DNA of 64,000 bases. It comes from Chryseobacterium lactis. Lineage in GTDB: Bacteria; Bacteroidota; Bacteroidia; Flavobacteriales; Weeksellaceae. The notes beneath the pieces are model-generated. The model was given only the letters and a program-made list of their open reading frames with translations. It was not told where the DNA came from and ran no database searches. Location: assembly GCF_003815875.1 (NCBI RefSeq), contig NZ_CP033924.1:4340001-4404000 (forward strand), written 5' to 3'. The position numbers and the translations under genes are program-made. Within the stretch, counting starts at the first letter, position 1, and each line of letters opens with the position of its first letter. This document shows positions 63,598-64,000 of this stretch, piece after piece.

Positions 63598-63698
63598 GAA
63601 ACATTAAAAAACCCTCTTTTCTAATTTTATATACAGAAGTAGATAATTTAATTTTTTTTATATATCTTAGTGAAAACTAAACTTATAAAATTAAAACC

Positions 63699-63899
63699 AT
63701 GGAAAAGAAACTCTTCTCAAAAGGAAAAAAACTAAGCAAAAAAGAATTAAAAACAATCGCCGGAGGTATGTTGAATTGTATGGGACCTGGAGTTCCTTGT
63801 GAAGGCCCTCTTTGTGATCCGCCAATTGTATCAGACGACCCAAGAGCTTATTGTACAATTATCTCCCCACGTTGCGGACAAGTTGCCTGCAGACCATAA
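63699..63899 (+). CDS. Gly-Gly leader peptide, bacteriocin-like/RiPP precursor candidate
   Basis: A 66-aa peptide. The 23-residue leader MEKKLFSKGKKLSKKELKTI-AGG carries the hydrophobic LxxxELKxIxGG pattern recognised by C39-peptidase ABC exporters. The 43-residue core is rich in Cys and Pro: Cys at 27, 34, 39, 52, 59 and 64, enough for three disulfides or for thioether or other maturation. Chryseobacterium genomes carry many such short genes, often annotated as bacteriocin-like. A near-match -7 box TATCTTAG lies at 63663-63670. No modifying enzyme or exporter gene is within the window. Confidence 0.8.
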   Translation: MEKKLFSKGKKLSKKELKTIAGGMLNCMGPGVPCEGPLCDPPIVSDDPRAYCTIISPRCGQVACRP

Positions 63900-63930
63900 T
63901 TTTTCAAATTCACCAATTACAAACGAGGTT

Positions 63931-64000
63931 ATGAGAAATCTAAAAATAAAAAAGGGGATACAACTCACCAAAAAAGAGCTCATATTGATTAACGGTGGCT
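63931..64000 (+). CDS. Second Gly-Gly leader peptide, cut by the window end
   Basis: Starting at the ATG at 63931, the frame reads MRNLKIKKGIQLTKKELILI then NGG and runs out of the window. The leader is again exactly 23 residues to the double glycine, with the same LTKKEL helix as the upstream peptide (LSKKEL). It lies 31 bases after the first peptide stop with no terminator between, so cotranscription is likely. The core peptide is not visible. Confidence 0.7.
   Translation, partial: MRNLKIKKGIQLTKKELILINGG

Follow-up and report, generated by a model that had tools for sequence, protein, structure and literature searches.

At the right-hand edge of the window, the 64,000-nucleotide stretch of DNA analysed here (bases 4340001-4404000 of a complete single-contig genome of 5.62 Mb), two consecutive small frames lie 31 bp apart, as the preliminary description had reported. 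The first encodes a precursor, peptide 1, with a core that contains the six Cys residues described before, with Pro and Gly between them, and that ends in C-x-Q-x-x-C-R-P; the frame of the second, peptide 2, runs on past the edge. Further to the right, in L003 (bases 4402001-4420000; an L003 position is the window position minus 62000), five more intact peptide genes follow within 3.5 kb, which brings the number to seven (Table 1). The expectation that a multi-peptide system extends beyond the window was thereby borne out, and the reading as a tandem pair was replaced by that of a seven-gene array once L003 was read. A comparison of the leaders of the seven genes gave the consensus MKNQNxxxGKKLNKKELKxITGG, and the six intact genes have in common a C-x-x-x-x-C that is followed by R/Q/W and then P. 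The 23-residue leader ending in Gly-Gly that had been claimed for both frames in the window thus stands, but the exact K-x-L claimed with it does not occur in both, as peptide 2 has G-I-Q-L-T-K-K-E-L at this place.

Table 1. Positions of the array genes and of other features discussed in the text (window positions unless a locus or the genome is named).
Feature	Position	Strand	Remarks
Class I/II aminotransferase gene, 382 aa	62392..63540	+	left neighbour of array; in 17/17 relatives inspected
Upstream region of peptide 1	63640..63698	+	weak promoter-like TATATCTTAG about 36 bases before start; pattern only
Peptide 1 precursor, 66 residues	63699..63899	+	ORF; leader of 23 and core of 43 residues
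Peptide 1 leader, 23 residues	63699-63767	+	Gly-Gly end
Peptide 2	63931..64000	+	intact leader MRNLKIKKGIQLTKKELILINGG; frame runs past window to 64092 (L003 2092)
SDR gene	L003 2206-2970	-	between peptide 2 and later peptide genes
AraC-type regulator gene	L003 3058-3996	-	between peptide 2 and later peptide genes
Peptide genes 3-7	L003 4141-4332, 4376-4567, 4586-4747, 4804-4965, 5083-5328	+	
Lipoprotein-like gene	L003 5393-6601	-	between array and YchF gene
Type II CRISPR locus	L004 2707-7852	-	Cas1 and 1417-residue HNH/RuvC protein of Cas9 type
Whole peptide 2 orthologues	L123 4200-4397; L132 4074-4274; L133 3460-3657		relatives
L039	2.05 Mb		C39-ABC, HlyD adaptor, 506-residue VKOR-thioredoxin protein, helix-turn-helix protein (weak TPR match), two leader-type peptides
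L040			C39 exporter by radical SAM/SPASM gene; own unlike precursors
L041	1.61 Mb; precursors L041 4031-5539		C39 exporter by LanB- and LanC-type genes; own unlike precursors
L042	4.73 Mb; precursors L042 17543-18795		C39 exporter by LanB- and LanC-type genes; own unlike precursors
RF02914 before leader peptides	genome 2050627-2050661, 2048116-2048148, 703010-703042, 1072700-1072732, 1099616-1099648, 4722788-4722820, 651221-651253		last one slightly under gathering score

By its whole-protein score, peptide 1 falls within TIGR01847 (bacteriocin_sig; 16.1 bits, cut-off 15.7), and the leader of peptide 2 alone scores slightly below that cut-off (15.3 bits). Against NF047798 (leader_Chryseo, "bacteriocin-like protein"), peptide 1 reached 21.2 bits alone and 22.7 bits in a scan of the genome, both below the cut-off of 23.5. 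Five array genes matched this model in the genome scan with scores from 22.7 to 16.4, none reaching the cut-off, and the remaining two are absent from the 62 matches of that scan. Pfam gave no family for peptide 1 or peptide 2; PADLOC matched nothing for peptide 1, nor for the VKOR and lipoprotein-like proteins treated below, and for the exporter returned only matches of ATPase type. In an alignment of 55 homologues, which were picked for having six Cys, the six Cys columns are invariant, and an AlphaFold2 prediction on 55 sequences was poor (pLDDT 54) and yielded no usable core fold.

The in-frame product of peptide 2 has 53 residues and a single Cys. Its first 30 residues match the whole gene of the relative G171 in frame, its in-frame core differs from the family core, and the family core sits in another frame, where 16/23 residues are identical to the G171 orthologue. 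Unbroken orthologues with four Cys are present in the relatives G171, G138 and G203, and the gene could be either a frameshifted copy or the site of a sequence error.

A profile built from all seven array peptides retrieved 168 proteins at E <= 0.01, and the named organisms among the 120 matches listed are all Chryseobacterium, so that the host probably belongs to this genus; as judged from these comparisons, the likeness among the array-type peptides is far beyond chance. Within the genus, the family was found in 82/118 genomes at E <= 1e-6, with 1 to 9 matches each. The array region was compared in 17 of these 82 relatives, a non-random choice made for several closely spaced matches (the eighteenth region fetched, L138, holds the exporter locus in G098 instead). 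In all 17, the peptides are flanked by the aminotransferase, SDR, AraC and YchF genes, with extra genes inserted in a few, and the array occupies one conserved chromosomal site in the relatives inspected. The aminotransferase gene itself stands outside the peptide system. In 296 pairs, dN/dS is about 0.095 in the cores and about 0.115 in the leaders. Choosing only pairs with 60-98% core identity beforehand biases these values downwards, but dS in the same pairs is high, at about 1. The array is old and, judged by these substitution rates, under purifying selection. The lipoprotein-like gene next to the array, for which a D-rich repeat was noted by eye and a Pfam scan gave no family, was matched in 11/17 relatives, in one of them over 75 residues only; it is possibly a partner, an immunity candidate or a mere neighbour.

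Upstream of the array peptides, a promoter-like element was recognised that consists of GTGA and, 25-26 bases on, TAnnTTnG, and that ends some 30-35 bases ahead of the peptide that opens a sub-array. It is present in 10/13 upstream regions inspected (at L003 4079-4116 here and at corresponding positions in relatives), and its GTGA part has no match upstream of peptide 1. Among 60 leader-peptide upstream regions of the genome, the complete element matches one (shuffled mean 0.43); it therefore belongs to the array, and the idea of one promoter common to all leader peptides was rejected. TAnnTTnG alone is found in 21/60 of these regions against a shuffled mean of 4.7, an enrichment as would be expected of an ordinary promoter part.

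The preliminary description had taken the two frames for the likely start of a RiPP or bacteriocin-like cluster. The 32 kb to the right of the window edge (L003, L004) were read, 28 flanking proteins were scanned with Pfam (10 of L003, 8 of L004 and 10/16 larger ORFs right of 44 kb in the window), and the SDR and AraC genes were covered by an NCBIfam scan. Neither an exporter nor a HlyD adaptor, radical SAM enzyme, LanB/LanC protein or ATP-grasp ligase was found among the flanking proteins scanned, and no immunity, receptor or two-component gene was recognised adjoining the array. What the scans showed were housekeeping and surface-protein genes and a CRISPR locus. Because no exporter or modifying enzyme was found in these 32 kb, an ordinary RiPP cluster does not begin at this site, and this part of the earlier reading was abandoned. 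The CRISPR locus, of type II, lies about 18 kb to the right of the array.

The array is one part of a larger set, as about 60 related precursors are present in the genome: NF047798 gave 62 matches at E <= 1, 34 of them above the cut-off. The array leader has 23 residues and most other leaders of the genome have 18. Cysteines were counted in the frames of 61/62 matches plus three found by eye; the match left out lies inside a 438-residue frame, one member lacks Cys altogether, and for another the stretch read contains no ATG. Among the 63 Cys-bearing ORFs, 61 have an even number (4 Cys, n=20; 6 Cys, n=36; 8 Cys, n=5), the exceptions being the frameshifted peptide 2 and one ORF with 5 Cys. The cores form 32 clusters, 30 of which have mostly even numbers. 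Even numbers were likewise found in 115 of the 120 matches listed for the array profile and in 107/107 leader peptides at the array loci of 18 genomes, a set that includes at least two non-array members and from which peptide 2 was removed by the leader filter; relatives and paralogues in all these counts are non-independent. As a control, mechanically derived ORFs with at least 3 Cys comprised 25 even and 38 odd cases, 31 of the latter with exactly 3 Cys. With at least 4 Cys, the control had 25 even and 7 odd as compared with 61 and 1 for the peptides (P 0.002), and with at least 5 Cys it had 5 and 7 as compared with 41 and 1 (P 3e-5). As the control depends on the Cys threshold, a coin-toss estimate would overstate the even-Cys excess, which is nevertheless real. 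Closed disulfides would leave just such a gap at 5 and 7 Cys.

Leaders of this kind had been said to direct C39-peptidase exporters, and such exporters are indeed encoded in the genome, which has four C39-ABC genes. One of them, at L039, adjoins the genes for a HlyD-type adaptor and a VKOR-thioredoxin protein and is located about 2.35 Mb from the array. The C39 and redox Cys motifs are present in the L039 proteins. Whether exporters co-occur with the leaders was tested on the wider NF047798 family, and co-occurrence was found. In a single sample of 100 family genomes (leader probe NF047798; VKOR threshold E <= 1e-10), leaders were present in 17 at E <= 0.001 and in 16 above the cut-off, VKOR in 18 and C39 in 41. 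All 16 genomes with above-cut-off leaders, taken as the 17 without G016, the weakest, have a VKOR match, two of those counted being weak (28% identical in G057; fragments or 29% in G003). The VKOR-only genomes are G022, with a 59-residue fragment, and G055, with a 29% identical protein. The 41 C39-bearing genomes divide into 16 with leader and VKOR, one with a leader only (weak), one with VKOR only and 23 with neither; the co-occurrence was assessed by Fisher tests. G098 is a single contig with 17 leader matches and one C39 match, which is adjoined by the VKOR gene and a leader peptide, and this argues for one exporter with many precursors. In the 11 leader-bearing genomes examined, the best exporter match has 83-95% identity in all but G057, where it has 56%; in G003, G012 and G085 the match is in pieces. 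The array peptides thus have what marks C39-exported Gly-Gly peptides of the class II type, namely C39-ABC and HlyD genes in the genome and, for the NF047798 family and with VKOR as marker, co-occurrence with the leaders. The array family itself was searched within the genus, where the VKOR gene is present in 8/8 genomes tested, so that the link from the array to the L039 exporter is an extension, suggested by leader likeness and by presence in the same genomes.

We think that the array peptides are probably disulfide-bonded, cut after Gly-Gly and exported through this unlinked, VKOR-linked exporter. The small peptides would be translated, each with a 23-residue leader, which the C39 domain of the L039 peptidase-ABC exporter would read and cut after Gly-Gly. 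The core would then leave through the exporter and its HlyD-type adaptor, and the VKOR-thioredoxin protein encoded at L039 as well would oxidise the cysteines, forming two, three or four disulfides. A single exporter would in this way serve dozens of scattered precursors, and for this reason the array in the window would need none of its own. For the role of the peptides, antagonism of other bacteria seems somewhat more likely than signalling.

That the peptides are instead exported by another, or several, of the four C39 exporters would fit with the number of such genes and with an array leader that is somewhat unlike the NF047798 type, but we regard it as quite unlikely, as the remaining three loci hold their own precursors with unlike leaders and C39 alone tracks the leaders less closely than VKOR does (24/41 C39 genomes are leaderless). 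It is decidedly improbable that the cores are enzymatically modified before export, by thioether, lanthionine or DUF692 chemistry, with an enzyme encoded elsewhere. The genome does have a radical SAM/SPASM gene, two LanB-type proteins with LanC-like neighbours and one DUF692 gene, and peptide 1 weakly matches TIGR04149, an rSAM-modified RiPP family, with 16.8 bits at a cut-off of 25; however, the radical SAM and LanB genes adjoin their own, different precursors, and disulfides account for the even Cys numbers. Modifying enzymes paired with precursors are thus found at other loci of the genome and not beside the array. DUF692 modification was rejected, as the gene lies at 3.63 Mb, 0.78 Mb off, and the conserved CPACGMG C-terminus of ChrA, the DUF692 substrate described for this genus (PMC10214503), is absent from the array peptides.

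A function as secreted, pheromone-like signals rather than toxins deserves consideration, since no immunity gene is recognised adjoining the array, selection is purifying and not of the kind that drives fast change, and the family is found in 82/118 genomes of the genus and occupies a single site in all 17 relatives inspected. Yet no receptor or two-component gene was recognised by the array either, and up to nine family matches occur per genome, and overall we consider signalling rather unlikely. That the array consists of decaying remnants or chance ORFs is scarcely credible: peptide 2 is frameshifted, but the other six copies are whole, dN/dS is near 0.1 and a promoter-like element precedes the peptides in most upstream regions inspected.

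Among known systems, the bacteroidetocins (class IIf bacteriocins) are nearest in working to the array peptides as proposed here (PMC6671954). A bacteroidetocin is one peptide with a leader of 15-16 residues, encoded together with a membrane protein in a set of four linked genes, and killing of Bacteroidales is a bacteroidetocin feature (PMC6671954). Gly-Gly leaders and short Cys-rich cores (4 Cys in bacteroidetocins A and B) are common to both, as are a C39-ABC exporter with a thiol oxidoreductase and a Bacteroidetes host (PMC6671954). In contrast, the array comprises seven genes with a longer leader, 4-8 Cys and no linked exporter. As neither a membrane protein of that set nor a thiol oxidoreductase or C39-ABC exporter was found among the flanking proteins scanned and the array leader has 23 residues, the array may work like bacteroidetocins but is not classed there. 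In Treponema denticola, clustered genes with bacteriocin-type signal domains are described, the products of which were found in supernatants with no killing detected (PMC11879956). They resemble the array in their tandem genes with such a signal, but are three genes upstream of a transporter, are paired with lipoprotein genes and belong to another phylum (PMC11879956). The ChrA/DUF692 RiPP of Chryseobacterium comes from the same probable genus and has a Cys-containing precursor, whereas dedicated modifying enzymes and a conserved CPACGMG tail are its own (PMC10214503). With NF047798 and TIGR01847, the array peptides share a short K-rich leader that ends in Gly-Gly or Gly-Ala and a Cys-rich core after it; they differ from NF047798 in that peptide 1 is under the cut-off and the array core family is separate.

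Many Chryseobacterium homologues among the 120 matches listed are named bacteriocin-like in their sources. That NCBI names such proteins bacteriocin-like is already known, and what is newer is the picture of a repertoire with a single exporter: the genes are annotated singly as bacteriocin-like or hypothetical, and together they look like a large repertoire with one predicted gate. If this is true, strains of one common genus each hold dozens of unstudied disulfide peptides. In the open-access literature, nothing was found on Chryseobacterium bacteriocin-like double-glycine proteins, on a link of VKOR to bacteriocin ABC transporters in Bacteroidetes, on secreted cysteine-rich Chryseobacterium bacteriocin peptides or on DUF805b. 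Quite possibly, although we put it forward tentatively, about 60 disulfide-rich secreted peptides of about 32 core types, with one shared exporter and its own disulfide-forming enzyme, would be what venom or defensin gene families are elsewhere, with arrays such as this one diversifying and the exporter staying fixed.

At L042 there are five near-identical tandem precursors with the core AAFSCVGGSCNNNTK, which adjoin a LanB-type gene, two LanC-like genes, a luciferase-like monooxygenase gene and the C39 exporter; at L041, five divergent Cys-rich precursors have leaders like EINKEDILNLSQDESQKIIGG and adjoin LanC-like and LanB-type genes and the C39 exporter. The Rfam element RF02914 (DUF805b, cis-regulatory) lies about 20 bases before the starts of several leader-type peptides elsewhere in the genome, including both at L039, and has no match in L003, which holds the array of the window. 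Its use to mark the exporter system was considered and dropped: at E <= 0.001 it is present in 58/59 genus genomes and in 59/100 family genomes and, being carried by more of the latter than is the VKOR gene of the exporter, it is non-specific. In the genome studied here, 7/17 RF02914 matches precede leader-model peptides (positions compared by eye), and of 41 RF02914 loci inspected, an automatic test places 21 ahead of Gly-Gly-type peptides, with more recognised by eye, the others being followed by other short proteins.
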